Assembly (NCBI GenBank): GCA_039111635.1
Contig: JBCAQO010000008.1
Location: 2,728,001 to 2,792,000, forward strand
Direction of reading: 5' to 3'
Origin: Heterobasidion occidentale
Taxonomy: Eukaryota; Basidiomycota; Agaricomycetes; Russulales; Bondarzewiaceae
DNA: 64,000 nucleotides
The translations under genes and the position numbers were made by a program. Below are positions 31,252 to 60,726 of this stretch, in pieces (within the stretch, counting starts at the first letter, position 1; every line of letters begins with the position of its first letter). The notes beneath the pieces are model-generated. The model worked only from the letters and a program-made list of their open reading frames with translations. It was not told the DNA's origin and made no database searches.

Positions 31252-32733
31252 TCAGCCCTGCAATGGACGGCCGACGGCGACCGGCGCGTGCGACACCCAG
31301 ACATCGCTTTCCGTCTCGCGCGCCCACTCAGTTCCAGAAGGGAACACGATCTGGCAGAGGGACGAACATGCGCTTGCCCACGCGGCGCATAGCCGGCGCT
31401 CCTCCTCTTCCGCCGTGCCCGCTGCCCCGATGCCGCTGCCATCCACGGCGTGAGTGGGCGACAGGTCGAGCCTGCGGAGGGTATGGAACGCGCCGAGGAC
31501 GGGGGTGAGCGCTGCGAGGAGCCTCTGGCGGGGCGCACATGGGAAATGCAGAATGGAGGTTACGGCTCGTGATCGGACGAGGTCAGGGGAGGGAGGGTGG
31601 AGACTTACGATGCCCGAAAGCGCAAAGTGCAGGGTGTGTCGCAGGGCAAGGCGCACACGGAGATGCTCGACGTGTGGGAGATACCGCGAGACGTCGCGCA
31701 GGAGAGGGGGCGTCACCGAGACGCCGCCGAGGTCGAGCACGCGGAGCGGGGCGCTCGTGTGTGCCAGGCGGGCAAGGTCCGCGCTCGAGACGCCCCCGTT
31801 GCTGTTGTTTCCGCTGTTTCTGCTGCCTGTGCCACAGGTATCGAGTAGTGCGAGGCCTTGTACCGGCCGACCTGGGAGGAGGGCGGCAGCGGCGGCGATG
31901 GGTCCGCGAAAGGCACGGAGCTCCGAGAGAGCATGAGGTGGGAGCGATAGCGGCGATGCAGAGGGATCGGTGTCGGCAAGGTGGAGGTGTAAGAGATGAG
32001 GATTCACAAGGAGTATAGGTGATGGATCTCCAAGACCCCCGATGATGAGGCGGCGGAGCGCTGGGAGCGCCGGCGGCGGGGAGGGGAAAAGGTGGGCGAG
32101 GTCGGACGAGGAGAGGATCGAGGAAACTGGGAGGAGGAGTGAGAGGGAGGCGAGGGAGACGAGGGTGGGTAGCAGGGCATGCATGATATGCTGAGTGAGG
32201 AGGAGGATCGAGGTCGGGTGATGGGAGGAAGCAGACACGGAGGTATACCAACGAAGATGGAGGCGCCGGACGTAGAGGGAGAGGTGGGGGCGGTTGGCGA
32301 GGGTTTCGCAGCAGCGCAGCGTGCGCGGAGGAACATAAGCTGAGGCAGAGGCAGGGTCTACGGAGGGTGAGGAAATAGGCGCAGATGGGGACTTGGGGGA
32401 ACGCGACGGGAATGAGTGGGGAATGGCCTCGGAGATGACGACGGACTCATAAAGGGCGCGCTCGGCGACGGCATGCCAGCGTCGCGACACAAGGGCGACT
32501 TGCGCGAGGGTTTCTGGGGAGAGGTAGTCAAAGATTGCGCTGAGGGTCTCGTTCGGAAGCCAGATGCCTGCGGTCGGGGGAGAGGAGGACGATGGGGGAG
32601 ACAACTGCGTGAGTGTCCGATCTGTTCCCGGATGAGTGAGGGACGTCACGGAGAGTGCTGCATGGCCTGAGAGAAAGGGATCACTCGCGGAGGAGATTGC
32701 GTCGGCGAAGCTGGCGACGCAAGTGCGAGACAT
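31252..32733 (-). CDS. large F-box-like protein
   Basis: A single 493-codon frame with strong third-position GC, higher than its neighbours. An F-box-like motif lies near residues 57-95 ('LPNETLSAIFDYLSPETLA', 'LVSRRWHAVAERALYESVV'). After a Ser/Pro-rich spacer come Leu-rich segments with regular spacing ('LSLYVRRLHLRW', 'LRRLIIGGLGDPSPILLVN', 'LRVLDLGGVSVTPPLLRDVS'). These look like degenerate LRRs used for substrate choice in SCF ubiquitin ligases. The frame ends at a TGA just after 'VGRPLQG'; a small extra 3' exon is possible. Long overlapping frames on the other strand are shadows of the GC-rich coding sequence. Confidence 0.78.
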   Translation of the reverse strand: MSRTCVASFADAISSASDPFLSGHAALSVTSLTHPGTDRTLTQLSPPSSSSPPTAGIWLPNETLSAIFDYLSPETLAQVALVSRRWHAVAERALYESVVISEAIPHSFPSRSPKSPSAPISSPSVDPASASAYVPPRTLRCCETLANRPHLSLYVRRLHLRWYTSVSASSHHPTSILLLTQHIMHALLPTLVSLASLSLLLPVSSILSSSDLAHLFPSPPPALPALRRLIIGGLGDPSPILLVNPHLLHLHLADTDPSASPLSLPPHALSELRAFRGPIAAAAALLPGRPVQGLALLDTCGTGSRNSGNNSNGGVSSADLARLAHTSAPLRVLDLGGVSVTPPLLRDVSRYLPHVEHLRVRLALRHTLHFALSGIVSLHPPSPDLVRSRAVTSILHFPCAPRQRLLAALTPVLGAFHTLRRLDLSPTHAVDGSGIGAAGTAEEEERRLCAAWASACSSLCQIVFPSGTEWARETESDVWVSHAPVAVGRPLQG

Positions 32734-43102: not shown

Positions 43103-46100
43103 ATGGAAGTCCAGACCCCGACTGATGAGACCGACTCCGTTCTGTGCGTCTCTGATTTCGACTCGTCATGTCAAAGTGCTCATCCAATGTTCGCTAGTGA
43201 TAGCATGCCTCGGCTGTGTATAGGCGCAGAGAACGAATCAGAGCACAGAGTAACATCTCCATCTTGCACATGTCACAAAACGGGACGAAACCTCATCGTT
43301 TGCATTGACGGAACTTCGAATCATTTCGCTCAAAAGGTACTTATCTTATGAATCCATATACTTGTTCACGCATCAAACACCGTGCTGCTAGAGCACCAAT
43401 GTGATGGAGATGTACCAGAATCTCGTCAAAGATGATAGCCAGGTGGCATGTTATATCAACGGCACTGGAACATTCACAAGACCATCATGGATGTCATTGA
43501 GTTTCTGGAAGCAGACTTTGTCTCACACGGCTGATCTCGCTTTCGCTTGGTGAGCAGACGTCACTCCTCTTTTTAGTCAGTTTAGTGTTGACATTGGATT
43601 GTCTCGAGGAAATTCAAAGGCACCATTATCAGCGCGTATCATTGGCTCTCGGAAAATTACACCGAAGGAGACCGGATTTTTCTATTTGGTGATTATATGA
43701 ACTGCGACATGTAGCACTTTCGTGCTGATTGTATGCCTTGCAGGTTTCTCTAGAGGAGCTTACGAAGTTCGCGCTTTATCTGCAATGATCGACAAGGTGG
43801 AGTTCTACGTCCAGTTTACCTCACCGTCTAAGTGACAATCTTGATCAGGTTGGGCTCGTGCACAAAGGCGATCGCGACCAAATCCCTCTGTTCGTGCATG
43901 CTGATCAATTTTCCTCGTCATCAATCGACTAACTTCGACTAACTTTAACGATAGCGCATACAAGCTGTATACAAGATCAGAGAAACAGGGCACACAATCG
44001 ACTGCCATGAACGACGATTTTGAGAAAGTACAATGGAAGCCAGGAGCAACACCACCAAATTCTGCAGACAGCTTCAAACGAACCTTTTCCAGAACAGTGA
44101 CGGTACATTTCGTGGGCGCCTGGTATGCATTGTTCGTATCTGTATTTTCTGAAGTCTCAGCCTTCCCAGGGAAACAGTGTCGTCTATTGGGGCGATCCGA
44201 CGCAAAACTGTGCCCGGTACGACCGATAGCATGAACGTCTGCTTTTTTCGACACGCTCTCGCACTTGACGAGCGTCGAGTCAAATATCTTTCGACTCTCC
44301 CAGAGTCGATAAGCACGACACATCCAAGCATCATACAAAAGAAGTTTGGTTCGATGGAACTCATTACGACCTGTAAGTCTATCAACGTTCTGCGCCGTAT
44401 AGTTTGGATTTCAGCTGTCAACAGAGGAGGCAAACACAACAAAGACACTACGATGGAACTCGGCAAGCCGCCTTTGCTGTGGATGTACCGAGAAGCCCAA
44501 TCTGTCGGGCTTCGTCTGTCAAATACGGACGCGAGATTGAACTGGAGCCCACATGACTATGTTTGTAAATCGCCCACCTCTCCCGAAGGTGCTTTCCGTG
44601 ATATGTCTATGAAGAGGCTGTCGCGTAAGGTCGTGCGCAATACGACAGCCTTGTAGGTCTCACCAGTCTCATTTATCAGCAACTACTTCTCAAAACTCCA
44701 CTTATAGCATTACCCGTAGCGCTGGACGACAAATACAGCTTGGACAAAAGATACATCCAACAGTATTCTTTCCCTCTGAATCGTGCAAGCCAGGCGTTCT
44801 CCCTCCGACACTGAGAGATGGCATCAATCCAACTCCATGCCTAGGCGAATCTCACAATCAGATTCCATTGCACAATGGTCATCATGGATAGACATGGATT
44901 TCCATGACATCGCACGAGCGATCATCAAGCATTTCGAGGGTTTGCCCACTAACCCTGTTTCGGGAGCGCGAGCTCTCAAACGTTTGTTCTCCGTTGGTGC
45001 GTGGAAATACACGCTCGTATTATTTCGTGCTCATAGGGTCCATTCGATCGATCTAGACGAAGGAGTTTCTGCTCTACGCGAGATACCAGAAGCAACTGAT
45101 TCTCTGTTATTTGCCTGGGAGAATTTGTGCGAGAAGGACTTCGAAATAGCTCGAGATGCTATTCGAGACGCGCTGGGAACGACAGAACAGATTATCGACA
45201 ATTTCAGTCGCTACGCAGCTCAAACAGCCGGTGTAACATCCACTGCGATTTCTCCGGACGGGACACTCATCGTCTCAGGGTCGATGGATCACTCTGTTGG
45301 AATATGGGATGCAATCACTGGCCATCTTATAGCGTCTTTCGAAAAGCACAGTGCTCCAGTCACCTCCGTTGCCTTTTCGTATGATGGGACGAAAATCGTT
45401 TCTGGTTCCTGGGATCAGACAGTGATCATCTGGGACGTCGCTAACGCCGATATTACGGGGAAACCGTTTAAAGGACACACGAACCGTATCACTTGTGTCG
45501 CTTTCTCACCAGACGCGAAATTCGTCGTTTCAGCTTCCGTGGATCAAACGATACGACTGTGGGATATACAAACGCGAGGAATCGTAAGAATTCTCGAACA
45601 GCCCTACTCGATCAATTCCGTCGCATTCTCGCCAGATGGGACTTGCCTTGTTTCAGCCTCTTTGGATCGAACGATCCGAATCTGGAATGCAAAGACTGGT
45701 CACCCTACTGACCAAATGTTCTCAGGACACACAGGCTCCGTTACTTGTGTCGCATTCTCGCCTGATGGACAGCGTATCGTGTCAGGATCTGTGGACCAGA
45801 CCATACGTGTCTGGGATGTGCCGTCTGGAACTCTCAGAACCTCACTGCAAGGGCATGCCGGCACCATCACGTCGGTAGCTTTTTCGCCTGACGAGAAACA
45901 CATCGTGTCCGGTTCTTCGGATCGAACTGTTCGAGTTTGGGAGGTCGATGCTGGCGTAGCCGTCGGCGATCCCTTCAAGGGGCATAATGGATACGTCACA
46001 TCCGTCATGTTTACACCCGGCGAGAGACATCTCATGTCCAGCAGTCTGGATGGGACTATCAAATTCTGGCGCGCCTACCCTTTCATAGGACACCAAGATA

Positions 46101-47097
46101 GCGTCAATTGTATCGCATTCTCGCCAGATGGAAGACGCATCGTTACGGGCTCGGGCGATAAGACAATTCGGATTTGGGATGCAGAGACTGGGACGCCATC
46201 GGAAAGCCATTGCAAGGGCACACCAACGCGATCTACTCGATCGCATTTTCTCCAAACGGAAAGCGTATCGTCTCGGGCTCAGGTTCTGTTGACAGAACGA
46301 TGCCTGGGGTCGATAGGACGATCCGCGTCTGGGACATGACAACAGGCGAGGTTGTTGGGAAGCCGTTCGGGGGGCACCGAGACGACGTGAACTGCGTCGC
46401 ATATTCGCCAGACGCGAAGTACGTCGTTTCGGGCGCTGGAGACAGAACAATCCGGTTCTGGAATGCGAGGACTGGCGAGGGTATTGGAAAGCCGCTGCAT
46501 GGGCATCGAAGCGGTGTCTTCTCCATCGCGTATACACTAGACGGAAAACGCATCTTTTCGGCATCTTGGGACGGAGCTATCTTGGCATGGGATGCAGCTG
46601 GCGCTGCGGCCGGTGGAGTCGTATGCAAACCCTTTATCGGACGCGCACGACTCGCTTCATGTATCGCCTACTCTCCTGACGGAGCGCGCGCTGTTTCGGG
46701 CTCCGAGGACGGAACCCTACGACTCTGGGATACTGAGCGTGGTGAGGCCGTCGGCGAGGCTTGGCAAGGACATCGAGGACCTGTCTCCTGCGTCGCTTTT
46801 TCCCCAGACGGCACGCGCTTTGTTTCAGGATCCGAAGATCAAACGGTCCGAGAGTGGAGTGCATCGACTGGGGAAGGGATCGGGCAGCCGTTGGAGGACC
46901 ACGGGATGGCCGTCTATTCAATTGCGATTTCGCCAGATGGAAAACGAATGGTGTCCGGTTCTAAAGATGGTTTCATCAATGTTTGGGTCAGGGGAGAGGG
47001 AGAGAGCACTGGCGCATTGTCCGCGGGGTGGCAGCCTCATTCTGCTTGCGTCGAATCCATCGACACGGCATCTCAGAAATCTTTGAAACACAACTGA
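43103..47097 (+). pseudogene. DUF2235 (Tle1-like lipase)-WD40 repeat protein, copy A, frame-broken as given
   Basis: Early exons (43103-43336, 43392-43549, 43609-43688, 43744-43796, 43849-43889, from 43955) encode a DUF2235 domain: 'RNLIVCIDGTSN', the nucleophile motif 'GFSRGAYEVRALSAMI', 'VHFVGAW' and 'CFFRHALALDERR'. The domain is an alpha/beta hydrolase known from type VI secretion phospholipases. A helical linker precedes 14 WD40 repeats (45220-47000), most ending in 'IRVWD'-like strands. Frame breaks are visible near 44305, near 44840 and near 46192, each consistent with one missing base. The segment equivalent to copy B's 'HSDVGGG' reads 'HYDL' followed by RGG, so the active-site loop has also diverged. 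I see no P-loop NTPase motif. It may be a decaying duplicate or a gene with errors. Confidence 0.72.
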
Positions 47098-48532
47098 CCG
47101 TGTAGGTTGGCAAGTATTCATATGAAGCAAGTACGAGGTCAGGTCTCTCAAATCCCTCATCGGCATGGATAATTGGAAACCGATAATCCTCCCTCTACAG
47201 CGTATATGTGTTTTCATTCATTCACCCAGCATGTCTTATCTATGCCCTCGCCTTTCCTTGACTTTCGTACATGTCATTTGGTGTAGTGACTCAAAGTTAC
47301 GGCTGAGACTGGCGTATTCACTGCGTACTCGATATCAGGACCCAAAGAATTGAATCCCAAAACTCGTGGAAAGATTTGAGCGCCTGGGGATTTCCCCTTG
47401 CAACAGCATCTAATAGGTGATGTTCAGCGCGATCTGTAGTCTGATACTCTGTGATTCCATTCATTCCTCCGATATAGGGAGAGATTGAAAGGACATTTTG
47501 CGAGACGTGACTTATCTCAAGAAGCGTAGCGAAGAAATGGCAAGATATGGCCGAGACAAAGTGGCCAAAGACGCGGAAAATGCCGCAAGATACTCGGGAG
47601 ATGCCGCTGATGAGCGCTGAGCGTCGACGACTCGATAACGATCGACCACGTTACAACTGCTGTTCCAAGCCTAAGCCCATTCAACATTTCGGTATCACTC
47701 CTTCTCGACTAGCTGCAGGCCGGCTGGATGGAAATGTTGCAGGGATAGTTGACTTCGTGAGTGTTGCTATTTCTCATTTCAATGCTCTCTTTCCTGACTC
47801 TACACATGCTAGTATATAATCGAAACGACCCACTATGAAGCTGCGAAGACTCTCGTCCTTGACATAAGTATCTTCAAGGCGCGATTTCCGCGTACATGGC
47901 GCTCTGTGATCTTTAATCTCACTCGCAAGCTTGCCACGCGCCTTCGGCACTCCCACTCGCCATAATCAGCACCAGACCCGCACCTACTCCTCGTGCAGCA
48001 CTGTTGACTGCTGCATGGCTGGCTACCTCGTTATCTTCTACGAGCAGGTCCGTGCACTTTGAGAAAAGGTCTAGAGTCACATAAGGACAAGATATGCGCG
48101 CCGTTGAGGCGTCTGTGTTGGCCCTCGTCGGAACAAGCGATCTAAGGTCAAGTTCGATAACAAAACATCACGACCTTAGTAACAGTCAACCCGAACTACT
48201 GCTACTTAGCTGCGCCAGCTCCAGCAGACCTGAATACGACCAAGCGATACCAGATCGGGTTCTCATTCCCCTCATCATCCCTTCATATGATCGAGTGTAA
48301 GGGACGGTTACATGTTGCATACTCTTCAAGGCACAAGCGTACTCTTGAGCTTCACTCACATCATCACATTAACCCCGTCACAGGCAAAGTCTGAATACCT
48401 ATCTTCCTTCAATTCAACGTCAGGAATATGACAGTATACTTGTGCACTACATAACCCCGCTGTCTTCTCTTTCCACTGCGACTTACTGTATCCCATGACA
48501 CTTCCTCCTGAGATTCTCAGTTCCATATTATC
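47098..48532. other. spacer between the two DUF2235-WD40 genes
   Basis: 1.4 kb with only short frames. No remnant of either gene was recognised by eye, so the copies are not overlapping duplicates. Confidence 0.4.
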
Positions 48533-51500
48533 ATGCAAAACCACGACACCTCTCAGCGCTGGTTAGTGTTCTCTTCTACCAGCTCAAAGTAATAGTATTG
48601 ACGGTCATTGCATCCTACAGGGACACTGGGCCAGATCGGTACAACTCGCCTCCTCCTGCATATATTGATTCAGAGCACGAGGCGAGGCCTTGCAAATGTT
48701 CGAGGAGGGGGAGGAATCTGGTCGTGTGCATTGATGGCACCCTGAATGAGTTTGGTCCAAAGGTGTTCCTGATTCCTTGATAACGAGTTCAAATTCTTCT
48801 CAATGCTTTTTTATCAGAACACCAATGTGATCGCTCTGCATGGTGATCTTGTCAAGGACGAAGACCAGATAACGTTCTATAGTAGCGGGATTGGAGCAAG
48901 CATTCAACCGCCGTGGCGGCCAGTCAGCTTTTTGAAGTTTGTCGACCCAAAACTTGACTCCGCTTTTGCTTGGTAATGAACATTTATCTACGTGTTTTTT
49001 TGTTCATCTCTCATCCTTGATCTGTATGCATAGTAACGTCGAAAAGATCGTCATCAAAGCATATCGCTGGCTCGCGGACAATCATAGTGAAGGCGATCAG
49101 ATCTTTTTATTTGGTAACTGGACATCATACTGTGACGTTTTTTAACCAACACATGTTTCATAGGATTCTCTCGGGGAGCCTACCAAGTCCGCATTTTGTC
49201 CGCAATGATTCACAAGGTAACGAGTCCATATCAGTCCACCGCTAGTCAGTCGACCGACGTCCACGCATCAGGTTGGGCTTATCCCAAGATGTGACGAAGA
49301 AGGAGCTTGGCGGTTTGTTCCCTTTGGTTATGCTCCTCCCTTCAAATGCCTAACTTTGTCAATAGTGCCTACAAATCTTATGTTGATTCCAGCCCGGACG
49401 GTTCGGAACCTGGTGGTGCTAGAGAATTCAAGGAAAAGTTCTCCAGCAAGGAAGTCCAGGTGCATTTTGTGGGTGCTTGGTGCGTAACATACGTTTTTGA
49501 AGCTATATATCTATTGAAACGTGAGCGTTAAAGGGATACCGTGTCTTCAGTGGGGGTCGGGCGAGGTAGGGTCCACCCTGGGACAACTGAGGGAATGCAA
49601 CATGTTTGCTTTTTCCGTCATGCTCTTGCGCTTGACGAGCTTCGCGTCAAGTTCCTACCCGAATATGCATGGGGCGGAGTGGCGCGACTCGATGGGCTGG
49701 ACGATTCAGATAACACAGTATCAACTTCTGCGAGTCCTCATACCAAAGAAGTTTGGTTCGCCGGCAGACATTCTGATGTGTAAGTGATCAATTTGATGTG
49801 CCGCCGTTGATGTCGATTGACTTGAAAACAGAGGGGGCGGGAGCAATAATAAGGATCTCAGCATCTTTCCTTTGCGATGGATGTCTCGAGAAGCCCAGCA
49901 GGCCGGACTTCGATTTCAAGCCTCAGGGAACGTAGCAATAACCGATAGGCTTCGCTTCGTCAACGAATCGCTCGCTTGGTGGAAGGTTTGCGAGTATCTA
50001 CCATTCCAACGGCTGATATATGGAGATACGAGCAGCACGACATACTCGTGAGTCTTGCTATTTCATGTTTCCGTCGACAGTCGCTCATATACTCTGCCTA
50101 TAGCTGGCATCGTGCCGCTGGACGACAAATTCAACCTGGCCAAAAGATCCATGCATCGGTATTTTTTTTATCGGACTCATACAAACCGCGAGCAGTTCTT
50201 CCAATAAATTCTCCTTCGCTGAGCGAATGGGAGGATCTGATCCCATCTCTAAACAAGGCGTCGTGGTCTTGTTCTCTCGAAGGCTGGTCCTCGTGGGTGG
50301 AATCAGACCTCTATGATATCTCAAGGGCAATCATCAAGGGCTTTGAGAGCCTCCCTGAGGATGCTTCCTTGGTGTCACGACAACTGAAACAATTAATAGC
50401 CTTCGGTGCGTGCAAAGAACACATGCGCCTCAAATGAATGCTCAATTGATATATCGTGATCTACCCAGATGAAGGAATCAAAGCTCTTTGCGAAGTGCCA
50501 GAAGCTATCGGCTCCTTATCTTATGCGTGGGAGAATCTGCGCGAATCAGAAACGGCATTCAAGACAGCACAAGACGCTATCAGAACTGCGCTGAAGAAGA
50601 TGGGAAAGATCGTTGACATAGCTGGACGATACGCGGCGCAACTTTCGGGAGTGACATCGCTTGCGACTTCTCCCGATGGGACCCTCACTGTCTCGGGATC
50701 CATGGATAACACCCTTAAAATCTGGAATACATCCTCTAGCCGATGTCCCATGAGGCACTCGGCTCCGATCGCCTCTGTTGCATTTTCACCCAACGGGAAA
50801 AGGATTGCTTCCGGCTCCTGGGATCACACCGTAATCATCTGGGATGCCTTCACTGGCGAAATGGTCGGAAAGCCATACAAAGGACACAAGCACCGGGTCA
50901 CTTGCGTCGCATTCATGCCAGATTCAAAATGCGTGGCTTCGGCTTCCCTCGATCGAACCGTACAACTGTGGGACACGGAAAAGAGAGAAGTAGTGTGGAC
51001 GATTAATCAAGCTACTTTCATCCATTATGTCACGTCTTCGCCGGATGGACGACGCATTTTTGGAGCTTCTTTGGATCAAACGGTCCGCGTATGGGACGCG
51101 GCGACAGGTGTTCCCATAGGCCAGCCATTCAAGGGACATACAGGCTCTGTTATATGCGTCGCATTCTCGTCTCTCGAGGATCGAGTGATATCGGGTTCTG
51201 TGGATGGAAGCATACGCATCTGGGACCCGGTAACTGGCCAATCTAGCAAAACATTCCTAGGACATGGCGGTGCAGTCACTTCAGTCGCCTTTTCGCGTGA
51301 CGGGAAGCATATCGTCTCCGGCTCTGTAGATCAAACGATCCGCGTCTGGGAGACGGATTCTGGTGAGGCCGTCGGCTTTCCGTTCACAGGACACACGGGA
51401 TCCATCACTTCTGTCATCTTTTCGCCTAACGAGAGGGAAATCATCTCCAGTAGTATGGATGGGAGCATTAAATGGTGGCGGGCCTGCCCTTTCGTAGGAC

Positions 51501-52472
51501 ACCGAGGCAGTATCAACTCTATTGCGTTCTCGCCGGACGGCAAACGCATCGTCACAGGCTCAGACGACATGACGATCAGGGTTTGGGAAGCAGAGACTGG
51601 CGAAGCTGTTGGGAAGCCGTTCGAAGGACACACCAGCCCAGTCCTCTCGGTTGCATATTCACCATGCCAAGAGCATGTTGTTTCGGGCTCGGGTTCTAAT
51701 AATAGAGCGATCCGTGGTGACAGAACGGTCCGAATCTGGAACGTGGAGACCGGAGAAGCCGTTGGGAAGCCCTTGAAGGGGCACAAGGACGCTGTGAACT
51801 CTGTCGCATTTTCGCCAGATGGCGAGCGTGTGGCCTCGGGCTCAGACGACAGGACGATACGACTCTGGGACGTTAAAAGCGGCGAGGCCCTGGGCAAAGT
51901 ACTAACAGGGCATCAATCCGGCGTCTTCTCTGTCGCGTATTCGCTAAATGGAAAGCGCCTTCTTTCCGCGTCTTGGGATGGTAGCGTTCTAGCATGGGAT
52001 GCTGTCGGTGCTGAGACGAGCACTGTATCTGGAAAACCACTTTTTGGACGCGTAAACCAAGTTTCTTCCATCGCATATTCCCCAGATGGAATGCGCGTCG
52101 TTTTGGGATCTGAGAATGGAGTAGTCCATTTCTGGGACACTGAGACTGGTCACACTATTGGAAGGCCATTGGAAGGACACCGACTTTCTGCCACCTGTGT
52201 CGCATTCCCCCCAGACGGAACACGTGTGGTCTCAGGCTCAGAAGATCAAACAATCCAAGAATGGGATGCACTAACGGGTGGACCTATCGGGAAGCCGATG
52301 GACAGTCGCGGTGGAGATTCTTTCCATTGCAATCTCGCCTGATGGGAAACAGATGGTGTCGGGTTCTCAAACGGGCCATATCGAGGTCTGGGACGTTGTT
52401 GAGAGCGGGGAATCATTGTCCGCTGGATGGCGGCGGCGTTCTTTCTGCGTTAGAACCATTGATACTCGATAG
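48533..52472 (+). CDS. DUF2235 (Tle1-like lipase)-WD40 repeat protein, copy B
   Basis: Early exons (48533-48561, 48621-48762, 48818-48972 and several more) splice in phase into a DUF2235 domain. It has 'GRNLVVCIDGTLNEFG', nucleophile 'GFSRGAYQVRILSAMI', 'FFRHALALDELRVKFLPEY' and 'VWFAGRHSDVGGG', so Ser, His and Asp positions are present. A linker of about 200 residues with helices ('WVESDLYDISRAIIKGFESL') follows, then a 628-codon frame (to 52342) of WD40 repeats. The last repeat continues in another frame to 52472 ('ISPDGKQMVSGSQTGHIEVW'), implying one missing base near 52305. Roughly 1,050-1,100 residues, no signal peptide, no P-loop. The layout, an effector enzyme plus a highly regular repeat sensor, is that of fungal non-self recognition proteins; the role is inference. 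Confidence 0.82.
50660..52472 (+). repeat. array of 14 WD40-coding units of about 126-129 bp
   Basis: Each unit encodes a near-identical core such as 'SVAFSPDGKRIVSGSDD' followed by a 'TIRVWD'-like strand and 'GKPFEGHT'. Repeat 7 is shortened, repeat 9 carries an extra dozen residues and repeat 11 has an 'ASWDGSVLAWDA' variant. The same peculiarities occur at the same places in copy A. Confidence 0.85.
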
Positions 52473-56100: not shown

Positions 56101-58049
56101 ATGCGATTCGACTCACTCCCCCTTGCTCTCACCCTTCTCATCGGCGCCCATGACGCACTTGCAGCCCCTCGGGCGCCCCGCGCGCTCCACGTTCCTCTTG
56201 TCCGCCGCGCCGCTGCCGAGCGCACCGCAGAAGAGTGGGGCCTCTGGGCAAAAGAGCAGAAGAATGTCCTCGAAGGAAAATACAGCGGCGACGCCGCACG
56301 AAAGCGCGCCGAGGGCATGAATCTGTGCGTCCCCTGTCTGCTGCTGGCCCCCTATTTCCCGAATGAAGCAGGCTAACGACGACTCAATCTACGCAGCATC
56401 GTTAACCAGAATGCAGACTCGAGGTGCGTTCTACCCCTTACCCCTTTTATTTTATCCCTATCTTTGTTTGGTTCGCTCTGCGGCTGACTCCGGCTCCCGC
56501 CTTTCCGCAGCTACTACGGCTCGCTCGCCATCGGTACACCTGCTACTGCGTACAATGTCATCCTTGACACCGGCTCCTCCGACCTCTGGCTGGCCGACTC
56601 GGCGTGCACCACCGGTTGCGACCAGATCACAACATTCAACCCGGACAGCTCATCCTCATTCAAGAACCTGTCCACCGCATTCTCGATCACGTACGGGAGC
56701 GGTCAGGCTGCCGGCGTGCTCGGAACAGACGTCGTGCAGATGGCCGGTTTCGAGGTGAACGAGCAGGTGTTCGGTGCGTGTCGCGTCGTGGGCTTGCTTC
56801 TTAGCCCCTCGCTTCGTTAGCGGTGTGAAAGCGCGTGCTGACTGTCATTCTTTTGTTTTACCTGTCTGCGCGCTTCCTTCGTTTTGTTTCTGCTTCTGCG
56901 ATTTCTATCATCTTTTATCGTGAATGCGTAGGTGTATGTAGCGTCGTCTCCTCTGGTCTTCTCAACGAGCCCGTGTCTGGTCTGCTCGGCCTCGCGTGGC
57001 AATCGATAGCATCGTCTGGCGCGACACCTTTTTGGGAGAATCTCTACCAGAACAACGCTTGGGATCAGCCCCTCATGGCTTTCCAGCTGACGCGGTATCA
57101 GAACGACAGCCGCGCGGCTGCCCTTGAGCCCGGAGGAACGTTCACAATGGGTATGTCTTCCTCCGCCCCTCGCGCTTGCGTATATTTTGACAGACGCTGA
57201 CTCCAACCTGCACTGTGTGACGTGCAGGTAATGTCAACTCGTCTCTTTACACCGGCGACATCGACTTCCAAGACATTCCGACGAGCACCCCGACGTACTG
57301 GACGTTGCCGCTGAAGACCTTGACCGTAAACGGCAACTCAATAACACTCGCCTCTGGCTCGTCGTCGTACGCTGCGATCGACACCGGCACGACTTTGATT
57401 GGCGGCCCGACAGACCAAGTCGCCGCGATCTTCGCGCAGATTCCCAACTCGGCTGCTGGGACAGGGAATTATCAGGGGTATTACTTGTATCGTGCGTATC
57501 CTCTCGCGTTCTGTAAATCGCACATATCGATCTGACAATCGTGATTTCTCAATGCGGTCTGCAGCATGCGATACGACGGTGTCTGTCACCCTGTCGTTTG
57601 GAGGCAAGGACTGGTCAATCAGTCCCGCCGACTTCCAATTGGCACAGGTCTCTAGCAGTCAGTGCCTCGGCGCCTTCTTCGAGTTCTCTAGCTCGAGCTC
57701 CGCGCCGTCTTGGATCATCGGTGACACGTTCCTCGTACGTATCCCCATCATATCCTCGTCTCTCTCATCTCTTATCTATTTGTTTCTTCTTGCGCAGAAA
57801 AATGTGTACTCCGTATTCCGCGCGTCCCCTGCCTCGATCGGCTTTGCCGCGCTCTCCGAGACCGCCGTCGCGATGAACGGTGCCTCGGGTACTGTACCCT
57901 CGCCCACGATTGGCTCTGTTTCAGCGAGCGTCACGGGGTCTGGGCGGTCTGCGAGCGCCGGGCAGTCGATCGTGATGGAGCGCGGAGCGCGGGCGGCGGT
58001 GTTGTTGTCGGCGCTGATGAGCGCAGCGGTGGGTGTGCTCGTGTTGTGA
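56101..58049 (+). CDS. secreted or cell-surface pepsin-type aspartic protease (A1 family), probably GPI-anchored
   Basis: Seven exons (56101-56324, 56397-56423, 56511-56773, 56932-57150, 57228-57491, 57565-57734, 57798-58049) join in phase to 472 residues. A signal peptide ('LPLALTLLIGAHDALA') and a propeptide with a dibasic site ('LVRR') come first. The two catalytic aspartates are in 'VILDTGSSDLWLAD' and 'AAIDTGTTLIGG'. The flap contains 'ITYGSGQAAGVLGTD', and the last core block is 'SWIIGDTFLKNVYSVFR'. The C-terminus is a Ser/Gly-rich stretch followed by a hydrophobic tail ('AAVLLSALMSAAVGVLVL'), typical of GPI attachment. It likely cleaves proteins at the cell surface or wall. The gene is intact. 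Confidence 0.93.
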
Positions 58050-58777: not shown

Positions 58778-60726
58778 ATGCTTGGATGGACGTCACGACT
58801 GCGCTTTGCTAGCGTCTCAGGCTGCGCACCGTCACGGCACTGGGCGCAGTCGCTGCTCCTCGTCTGCAGACCGACTTTGGAACATTCGTTTCCTAATGGC
58901 CAATTGACTCGCGTCGGGAGACATGTCAGCGTCGGAAAGCGTAGTCTCGGGACTGACAGGAGTGGGAGGGTGAATTTGATGCCGCCTATGGCGTCGTTTC
59001 GCGAGCAGGTCGCGCGGGGTGCCCGTGTGAAGCCGTTTTCGGAGCGTATAGATCGCGCTGGGTTGATCTCTGGGATCGTTGTGAGTCTTCTGCTCTCCTC
59101 TTACCAGTCTCTCTGGAAGACTAGGGCTGTGGTGGATCGTTGCCAGACCTCGCCTTCACCCCGAACCAAACTGTCCCTCTGACCACGCTATACTTATCAG
59201 CACTCTGCATGGTATTCCAGGTTGCTTTTGTTGTACCTCCCGTGATATATGGAATTGCTAGCCTGCTCACGATGACGGACACCGTGAGGGTGAAAGTTGG
59301 TGTTGCGTGGGATTCACGCACAAAATCTAGTCAGCCGCGCCAGACCAACGAGATGCTACGCAACGTTTATGCTTTTCACAAGTCGAATGTGGTGAGTCCC
59401 TTCTGGCTTCCTCGCCGTGATTCATACTTCTCATGTCGATCGGTGTGTACAGCCGTGGATGCGACTCAACCAAAAAATCAAAGAGAAAGATATGGCCAAA
59501 CCCCGAATCTGGAGGAAAATAATTGCTCTCGCATACTTGCATGTCATGCGGAAATATTACCGCTCCGCAGAGGGTGCCAAGGTTTGCCTCAAAATCTGCG
59601 CCGCCAATGTGTTCGTCTGGTTGTTGTGGAAGGTGCCGTTGGCGCGACCGCTCGTAACGCGCTGTTTCACACACGATCCGCTCAAGAAATCGCGCTATAC
59701 ACTTATCACGAGCATGTTCAGGTATATAATTCACTCGTCACCGCGTGAGGACCGGTGGTTCAATGCACATTCTCTTGCCCTACTTTTGAAGTCATAGGTC
59801 GTTTGTGCATCTAGTGGCTAGTTGTGCAGCTTTGCCATGCTTTGGTATGGGAATTGGTGACATATCCGCCTACGACGGCTTATCATATGCATTTTTTGTC
59901 AGGGGCTGCTACCGCAAGTTGGATGAGCAGGCAGCAAGATCACCTTTCCAACAGGGGGGCCCCGGAAGCAACATCCAAATATCACCTTCTTGCTTTCATT
60001 TTAACAGGTACCTCCATTGTTCCCGTATGTGTCACTCCACTGACTCGCCGATTGCCCAAAGCCGCTCTCGTATCCAACGTCGTTTCGAAGACCATGTTTC
60101 TGACGCTAGGCTGGAGCCGTCTTATGAGTGGCCGGACGCCCTCTCAGCTTCATGCAATGCTGCCCGATGGGCTTGCCCATGGCTCGTGGCTCTCATCGCT
60201 CCGATTTCGAATATCCAGGTTCTTTGCACCAGCTCCCAGGGGACAGTTCAAAGATATGCCTGGCCCTGTTTCGTTTGGCACGTCTGGCTCCATCTATGCT
60301 CTCGCGACAGTGACGGCGTTCGCATACCCTGATCTACGAGCCTCGTTCAACTGGATGCCAGGTCTGAGCATTGGAGTGCAGCACGGCCTCAGCGGAGCCT
60401 TGCTCCTTGATGCGATAGGCGTGTTTTACGGATGGAGGTGCGTCTTATATCACGAATCTTTCGCCCACATTGCAAAGCAAAACTCCATCACTGAACTCTT
60501 ACAAACCCTCACGAACAGACGATTCGATCATTGGGCGCATATTGGCGGCGCGACATTCGGTGGACTATATTATGTGTATGGCGCAGAGCTGTGGAATGGT
60601 CTAAGGCGAAAGCTCGGACCTTTGTGGCTATATCACCTTATGGGGGATGTGTATCTCGCATTGCTCAAGGATGGTCTGTCGAGGAAGGATGAGAGCTCTA
60701 GATCACGCAAGTCGGGGCAATCATAG
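58778..60726 (+). CDS. rhomboid family intramembrane serine protease, copy 2 (mitochondrial PARL/Pcp1-like)
   Basis: Seven exons (58778-59080, 59221-59391, 59453-59721, 59798-59844, 59903-60007, 60062-60437, 60519-60726) join in phase to 492 residues. The start gives a basic N-terminus without acidic residues, as in mitochondrial presequences. The catalytic Ser is in 'GTSGSIYALATVTAF' and the His in 'FDHWAHIGGATFGGLYYVYG'. The second-helix motif is 'FVHLVAS', with the His present and the oxyanion Asn replaced by Ser, as in copy 1. The loop before it lacks the Ser-His seen in copy 3. Exon lengths 171, 47, 105 and 376 are shared with copy 1, so the two descend from one spliced ancestor. It presumably processes inner-membrane proteins. 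Confidence 0.9.

Follow-up and report, generated by a model that had tools for sequence, protein, structure and literature searches.

Several described systems offer themselves for comparison with the genes reported here, two adjacent DUF2235-WD40 genes in a 64,000-nucleotide stretch of Heterobasidion occidentale DNA. In the HNWD (HET-NACHT-WD40) allorecognition receptors of Podospora anserina, the C-terminal WD40 repeats are kept alike by concerted evolution and are classified by sites 10, 11, 12, 14, 30, 32, and 39 because of a high ratio of nonsynonymous to synonymous substitutions (dN/dS), and the introduction of the same paper gives the number of codon positions subject to diversifying selection as four (PMC12222747). 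A lipase effector combined with a repeat sensor is found in the fungal patatin and SesB members of the nucleotide-oligomerization domain (NOD)-like receptors (NLRs) (PMC4986451, PMC12881547), and of the characterised lipase receptors the one closest to the present genes is PLP-1, a patatin NLR (PMC12881547). The Q2L gasdermin-activating proteases with ANK, TPR, or WD40 repeats place an effector enzyme beside superstructure-forming repeats, and only a subset of these protease-repeat proteins is said to belong to the NLR family (PMC10197012); Q2L is thus the precedent for joining an effector to repeats in a protein that does not follow the NLR plan.

The whole stretch (the window) is fungal and comprises positions 2728001-2792000 of contig C8 in a 45.05 Mb assembly of 159 contigs. 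A preliminary description of the window, made from its letters alone, had credited two neighbouring genes with one architecture, namely a DUF2235 domain, a helical linker, and 14 WD40 repeats, and this was borne out for both copy A (43103..47097) and copy B (48533..52342), which lie on the forward strand. We put at about 0.6 the probability that DUF2235-WD40 proteins are a family of Agaricomycete receptors without a NOD, with a hypervariable WD40 face as the sensor and a phospholipase as the effector. Copies A and B are a diverged branch of this family, whose arrays are not being homogenised, and the evidence for recognition comes from their relatives.

The Pfam search of copy B placed PF09994 (formerly DUF2235; the Tle1-like catalytic domain of the type VI secretion system, T6SS) at residues 41-307 (48712..49892, forward strand; E = 1.6e-66) and also returned WD40 (PF00400; E = 4.8e-128). 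The motifs GFSRG, RHALALDE, and HSDVGGG, pointed out previously, were all found in copy B; its catalytic motifs are GFSRG (Ser), WDTVSS (Asp), and HSDVGGG (His), the last being split by an intron between HSDV and GGG. Judged by its profile match and its GxSxG, Asp, and His motifs, the copy B sequence is that of a Tle1-like lipase. A profile search of the PDB with the lipase domain returned the Tle1/TleB phospholipase effectors 9j3f and 6sjl and also 4o5p, an entry called “uncharacterized” there, which we take to be Tle1; a single-sequence search of the PDB with copy B gave no Tle1 match, the best hit (E = 0.32) being unrelated. Modelling on a homologue showed a predicted Tle1 fold for the effector domain, an alpha/beta-hydrolase that, to judge from its family, is probably a phospholipase. 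The domain thus resembles Tle1/TleB of bacterial type VI secretion (9j3f, 6sjl) in PF09994 membership, fold, and Ser-Asp-His motifs; those proteins, unlike the present ones, are bacterial, secreted, and not fused to WD40 in the records examined. Tle1/TleB effectors also have an immunity partner. An exported or delivered anti-competitor toxin, as a fungal counterpart of T6SS Tle1, would suit a domain of this type, and a transfer to fungi was inferred in a polymorphic-toxin review, where DUF2235 appears as Tox-ABhydrolase-1 and where “WD40” does not occur in the portion examined (PMC3482391). We consider such a toxin very improbable, as the N-terminus of copy B, inspected by eye without a prediction program, showed no evident hydrophobic signal peptide and the relatives of copy B show NLR-like WD40 variation.

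The plan of NLR and STAND (signal transduction ATPases with numerous domains) receptors comprises an N-terminal effector, a central NACHT or NB-ARC domain, and a C-terminal repeat sensor. The outer two parts are present here, as PF09994 and 14 WD40 repeats, while the central part was not found in the linker. The linker of copy B (50180..50641, forward strand; residues 385-517) gave no Pfam family at E ≤ 1 when searched alone, and copy B contained no Walker A match, in agreement with the earlier remark that none was visible in the linker. Among the 120 best homologues, the only Walker A-like strings, inspected by eye, were of the WD40 type AxxxDGK(S/T). A NACHT profile built from the NACHT exons of this genome (8 of 17 loci giving stop-free rows, forward frames only) reached no better than E = 0.17 over the 120 homologues and copy B; on two correctly read control loci it gave 3e-58 and 2e-6, the other seven of the nine control loci being on the minus strand and not properly read. 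The predicted structure of one homologue (P0045) contained helices after residue 456 but no strand as long as three residues. On the Pfam, Walker A, profile, and model results we rejected a NACHT, NB-ARC, or death-like fold; since the linker fold was not searched separately, it is not put forward as new. The profile check that the preliminary description had proposed thus confirmed PF09994 in copy B and yielded no nucleoside triphosphatase or death-like fold, and the NACHT or NB-ARC linker that it had named as fatal to its view did not appear.

A genome search with the copy B linker plus its first repeat (best 150 of 208 candidates scored) gave 11 matches, all of them at the seven DUF2235-WD40 loci described below except two, which cover WD40 sequence only. 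None of 197 candidates from the protein database matched the linker at E ≤ 0.001, so that the linker seems to be fast-evolving. The locus differs from HNWD in having neither NACHT nor HET and in carrying a lipase effector, and from the patatin and SesB NLRs, which belong to other hydrolase families and have a NOD in between (PMC4986451, PMC12881547). It also differs from Q2L, whose effector is an S8/CHAT protease acting on a gasdermin encoded nearby (PMC10197012), in its Tle1-type lipase; no protease was present among the best 25 of the 64 Pfam families for copy B.

The protein search returned 738 proteins at E ≤ 0.001 among 7997 scored candidates, and the counts that follow refer to the best 120 of them, of which those named are Agaricomycete proteins. 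By our own profile, at least two WD40 repeats were present in 97, exactly seven in 66, 14 in two, and none in 23; the architecture therefore already exists in database entries, as had been suspected. Nine of the 120 carry other repeats by precomputed Pfam accessions, presumably seven of ARM type, one HEAT, and one TPR (P0007, P0009, P0027, P0032, P0046, P0064, P0096, P0107, and P0112; the type names are not all certain), and since the same lipase domain is joined to these, the sensor type seems to be interchangeable. Three lipase proteins without WD40 (P0005, P0014, and P0039) share a C-terminal stretch with a core like LFPYLxYFxPxD.

The Ser motif was found in all 120 homologues and the His motif in 117, and the catalytic Asp is likewise conserved, as would be expected of an ordinary, if regulated, lipase of lipid metabolism or membrane remodelling whose WD40 part is a scaffold for fixed partners. 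The repeats of copies A and B, which keep their own identity, would suit such a scaffold too. We nevertheless regard an ordinary lipase as unlikely. In a tree of 117 lipase domains (116 of the 120 homologues plus copy B, after exclusion of those whose effector segment was too long or that lacked a His motif), the proteins formed species-specific clusters, and 85 rows from 22 multi-row species required 29 label changes, the minimum being 21, indicating lineage-specific expansion. The one-to-one orthology with a metabolic lipase that the preliminary description had listed as contrary evidence was thus not seen. The ordinary-lipase explanation is further opposed by the diversifying selection at seven repeat sites and by the near-identical effectors with very different sensors described below.

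In the genome, PF09994 was matched by 41 exons, which we grouped into about 19 loci. WD40 arrays accompany at least seven of these, all found on the right arm of C8 (2.771, 2.777, 2.880, 2.889, 2.957, 3.059, and 3.153 Mb of 3.175 Mb); seven is a lower bound, as the best 150 of 840 WD40 candidates were scored and the other PF09994 loci were not read at full length. The arrays of copies A and B contain 14 repeats each, and a short spacing of 108 nt after repeat 7 recurs in all seven paralogous arrays read, which fits two seven-bladed propellers. In four paralogues (L039-L042), the identity of repeats 1-7 was 0.64 between genes for the same repeat number and 0.51 for different repeats. For repeats 9-13, same-number identity (0.74) was hardly above that of different numbers (0.71), with 0.72 within a gene, suggesting exchange between these repeats; an additional unit in L041 and a stray initial match in L042 were excluded from the comparison. 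HNWD-type homogenisation was accordingly observed in repeats 9-13 of L039-L042, and not in copies A and B. The second propeller of L043, a near copy of L041, was also homogenised, so that five genes show it, L042 most weakly.

The six most variable of the 43 repeat sites were 12, 9, 28, 10, 8, and 30, with site 37 in eighth place (23 units, four paralogues pooled). The mean entropy was 1.79 at sites 8, 9, 10, 12, 28, 30, and 37 versus 0.53 elsewhere, and the value at the seven sites was matched by none of 100000 random seven-site sets, in a test made after the data had been seen and with a site list that is the published one shifted in register by two. The spacing of these sites is that of HNWD (10, 11, 12, 14, 30, 32, and 39; PMC12222747), the offset of two having been deduced from the spacing and not from aligned HNWD sequences. 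In L039-L042, dN/dS was 2.30 (bootstrap 1.76-3.17) at the seven sites and 0.33 elsewhere, showing diversifying selection at these sites; the corresponding values for five NACHT-WD40 arrays of the same genome were 1.74 (1.47-2.05) and 0.31. L043 was left out of these counts as a near copy of L041, and units that failed a Trp/Ser filter were dropped (1 of 24 DUF2235 and 3 of 53 NACHT units). Normalised entropy gave a strong contrast in the second propellers (0.71-0.78 at the seven sites versus 0.13-0.35) and a weak one in the diverged first propellers (0.62-0.79 versus 0.46-0.53); the contrast was also weak in copies A and B (0.67-0.73 versus 0.42-0.46), which lack the hypervariable signature. 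As in HNWD, the repeats of the relatives are alike and two propellers may be inferred; unlike in HNWD, only the second propeller is homogenised. No recent exchange of repeats between NACHT-WD40 and DUF2235-WD40 genes was seen when consensus repeats were compared by eye, as these differ, for example, in Tyr versus Phe at site 16.

A matching protein-level pattern was seen in homologues. Of the 69 with at least four canonical units, 56 had repeats whose identity was at least 0.35 higher at the remaining sites than at the seven, the clearest case being P0094 of Galerina marginata (0.87 outside versus 0.39 in the sites). In all 15 close homologue pairs chosen from the tree, the WD40 part was less alike than the effector. 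Effector identity was 0.91-0.96 in eight of the pairs, and WD40 identity was 0.64-0.80 in seven of these eight (for example, 0.93 and 0.70 for P0012/P0026, and 0.94 and 0.66 for P0017/P0021). One-to-one pairing of units was possible in four pairs, and identity at the hypervariable sites was 0.21-0.26 in three of them. P0082 entered one alignment (A4) twice.

Several observations weigh against a receptor family of this kind. The fourth of those pairs, P0049/P0062, had identities of 0.94 in the effector, 0.88 in the WD40 part, and 0.86 at the hypervariable sites, although no more than 128 sensor residues could be aligned. Diverged WD40 repeats likewise show poor conservation at the seven sites, so that the signal consists of the contrast with homogenised neighbours together with dN/dS. 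L042 fits weakly, with three of the seven sites among its eight most variable. The published threshold of 85% internal identity over at least 100 residues (PMC4986451) was reached by none of the four paralogues, whose best three-unit identity was 0.56-0.80, and by 2 of 75 homologues and 1 of 5 NACHT arrays. In copies A and B, same-number identity was 0.68 versus 0.52-0.53 within a gene in both halves, indicating that the repeats keep individual identity without concerted evolution. Each of the seven DUF2235-WD40 arrays that were read in the genome departs from a single open frame. In copy A, Glu takes the place of the catalytic Asp, and copy B deviates at 7 of 80 near-invariant lipase positions, as compared with a median of 0.5 and a maximum of 8 among 116 homologues.

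The preliminary description had spoken of 14 very regular repeats per gene; the count of 14 held for both, whereas the repeats were not unusually alike (mean nucleotide identity of about 0.5 within one gene of the window) and no array was in one frame. Likewise, its suggestion of a simpler non-self recognition device gained support from the relatives, with their homogenised repeats and HNWD-spaced hypervariable sites, and not from copies A and B, where this signature is lacking.

Copy B consists of 11 exons (48533-48561, 48621-48762, 48818-48972, 49034-49113, 49164-49216, 49272-49312, 49366-49479, 49534-49779, 49832-50047, 50104-50405, and 50469-52342), linked by ten GT-AG introns of 50-63 nt into a stop-free sequence of 1083 residues. 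Repeats 1-13 (50621..52342) are in one frame, with two inferred propellers that meet between repeats 7 and 8, and the frame is left in the last repeat, so that repeat 14 and the tail (52287..52472) are in another; with them the gene spans 48533-52472. In copy A, the lipase part (43103..44376) was read as exons at 43103-43336, 43392-43549, 43609-43688, 43744-43796 (with GFSRG), 43849-43889, 43955-44122, and from 44170, and the six introns read there match introns 2-7 of copy B in place and phase. The linker (44783..45202) matches that of copy B and is followed by the 14 repeats (45203..46990), of which 1-8 are in one frame (45203-46200) and 9-14 in another (from 46201). The frame of copy A changes at about 44.3 kb, before the His motif GTHYDL (about 44.34 kb, in another frame), at about 46.19 kb between repeats 8 and 9, and perhaps at about 44.8 kb in the linker; this last change disappears if an intron of 62 nt, for which there is no proof, is assumed. 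By the Tle1-like criteria, copy A thus departs in its His motif, which is in another frame, and in the Glu at the start of exon 7, a position where each of the six further paralogues read has Asp, as do all of 20 aligned homologues, and which is conserved to at least 90% in 68.

These features raise the question of whether copies A and B are non-functional relics of the family, a substantial possibility, although one against which we lean. The broken frames of the two arrays and of the copy A lipase exons, the Glu of copy A, and the relaxed lipase domain of copy B on its long branch (1.16) are as expected of pseudogenes, and the 40 TCP-1 exon matches in the same assembly showed no clear frame break by eye. 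Copy B, on the other hand, has intact lipase and linker exons and 13 of 14 repeats in frame, and sequencing errors may account for the frame breaks. Six pairs of near-identical duplicates were compared, and in two of them small indels outnumbered substitutions, many of them at homopolymers: L041/L043 differed by 6 substitutions and 8 small indels (1-5 nt) in 2795 aligned nt before the arrays, and L024/L025 by 0 substitutions and 3 small indels in 3.5 kb. The other four pairs showed no such excess (19 substitutions and 6 small indels in L014/L018, 43 and 0 in L022/L021, 73 and 2 in L019/L016, and 16 and 1 in L045/L047). This excess suggests residual sequencing error in some duplicated regions and makes pseudogenes indistinguishable from sequence errors. 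Decay had at first been inferred from the seven broken DUF2235 arrays against one of five NACHT-WD40 arrays (four being in one open frame as far as fetched), and this was withdrawn in view of the indels. The nearest relative of copy B in the tree, P0003 (branch support 85), has 14 WD40 repeats in one frame and is probably recorded as a spliced transcript, as 3824 nt correspond to 1170 residues. Its structural model (mean predicted local distance difference test score 70, first propeller poor) served solely to confirm a propeller.

In the family as a whole, a constant N-terminal Tle1-type alpha/beta-hydrolase is tied through the helical linker to one or two WD40 propellers, and in many members inter-repeat exchange keeps the repeats of a propeller alike while diversifying selection varies the residues of one face, as in HNWD. 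We propose that the variable sites would form a binding face for a variable partner, which might be an allelic self protein or else a molecule from an invader or a fused cell. Binding might free or cluster the lipase with no ATP-driven assembly, and the freed lipase would cleave phospholipids and damage the membranes of its own cell, leading to cell death. More tentatively, and at somewhat less than even odds, this would be an expanded mushroom class of NOD-less allorecognition or immune receptors, with a Tle1-family phospholipase under direct control of a hypervariable WD40 face, in which the HNWD recognition code is used without a nucleoside triphosphatase in one- and two-propeller forms, the second propeller being the evolving one.

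Our literature search found nothing joining DUF2235 with WD40, nor Tle1-like proteins with fungi and WD40, and DUF2235 did not occur in the main texts of the two NLR surveys, the NLR effector survey, and the cell-death review searched. Within this literature, the recognition signature of the DUF2235-WD40 family seems to be undescribed. DUF2235, in an architecture not specified there, is among the domains upregulated in the mycoparasite stage of Armillaria ostoyae with Trichoderma (PMC10269595), which hints at a defence role. Since NLR surveys start from NACHT or NB-ARC, they would miss this family. According to a 2014 survey, NLR-like proteins account for 60-70% of the highly conserved repeats in Dikarya (PMC4986451), and the DUF2235-WD40 family is a candidate for part of the remainder. 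If the proposal is correct, control of a lytic effector by a variable sensor does not require a nucleotide switch. To our knowledge, little is known of the molecular basis of somatic incompatibility in basidiomycetes, and intracellular non-self recognition in these fungi would become directly testable, with the repeat sites and the catalytic serine named.

NACHT-WD40 genes lie on the same arm of C8 and in a cluster on C10; the NACHT match nearest to the window is 5.4 kb outside it (C8:2722103-2722579). No subtelomeric location is claimed, because the telomere pattern had no match across the whole assembly. The C10 cluster occurs twice in mirrored arrangement (about 510-680 kb and 890-950 kb) with equal or near-equal match scores, and 0-73 substitutions in 3.5 kb separate the members of four mirrored pairs, as a result of either inverted duplication or an assembly artefact. 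L041 (C8:2957 kb, minus strand) and L043 (C8:3153 kb) are likewise nearly identical copies of a gene in inverted orientation. The L041 array contains an additional WD40 unit that exactly copies its neighbour, and several of its spacings are 128 nt, not 129 nt. A first impression that gene conversion had spread a deletion was not upheld, since the same context occurs in copy A and L043 and systematic sequencing error is equally likely. Two almost equal copies of a TCP-1 family gene were found, one on C14 and the other on C33, a small contig, so that some haplotype duplicates may remain in the assembly. The window further contains an F-box protein gene (31252-32733, minus strand), an aspartyl-protease exon (57399-58049, plus strand), and a weak rhomboid match below the curated cut-off (59824-60726, plus strand).

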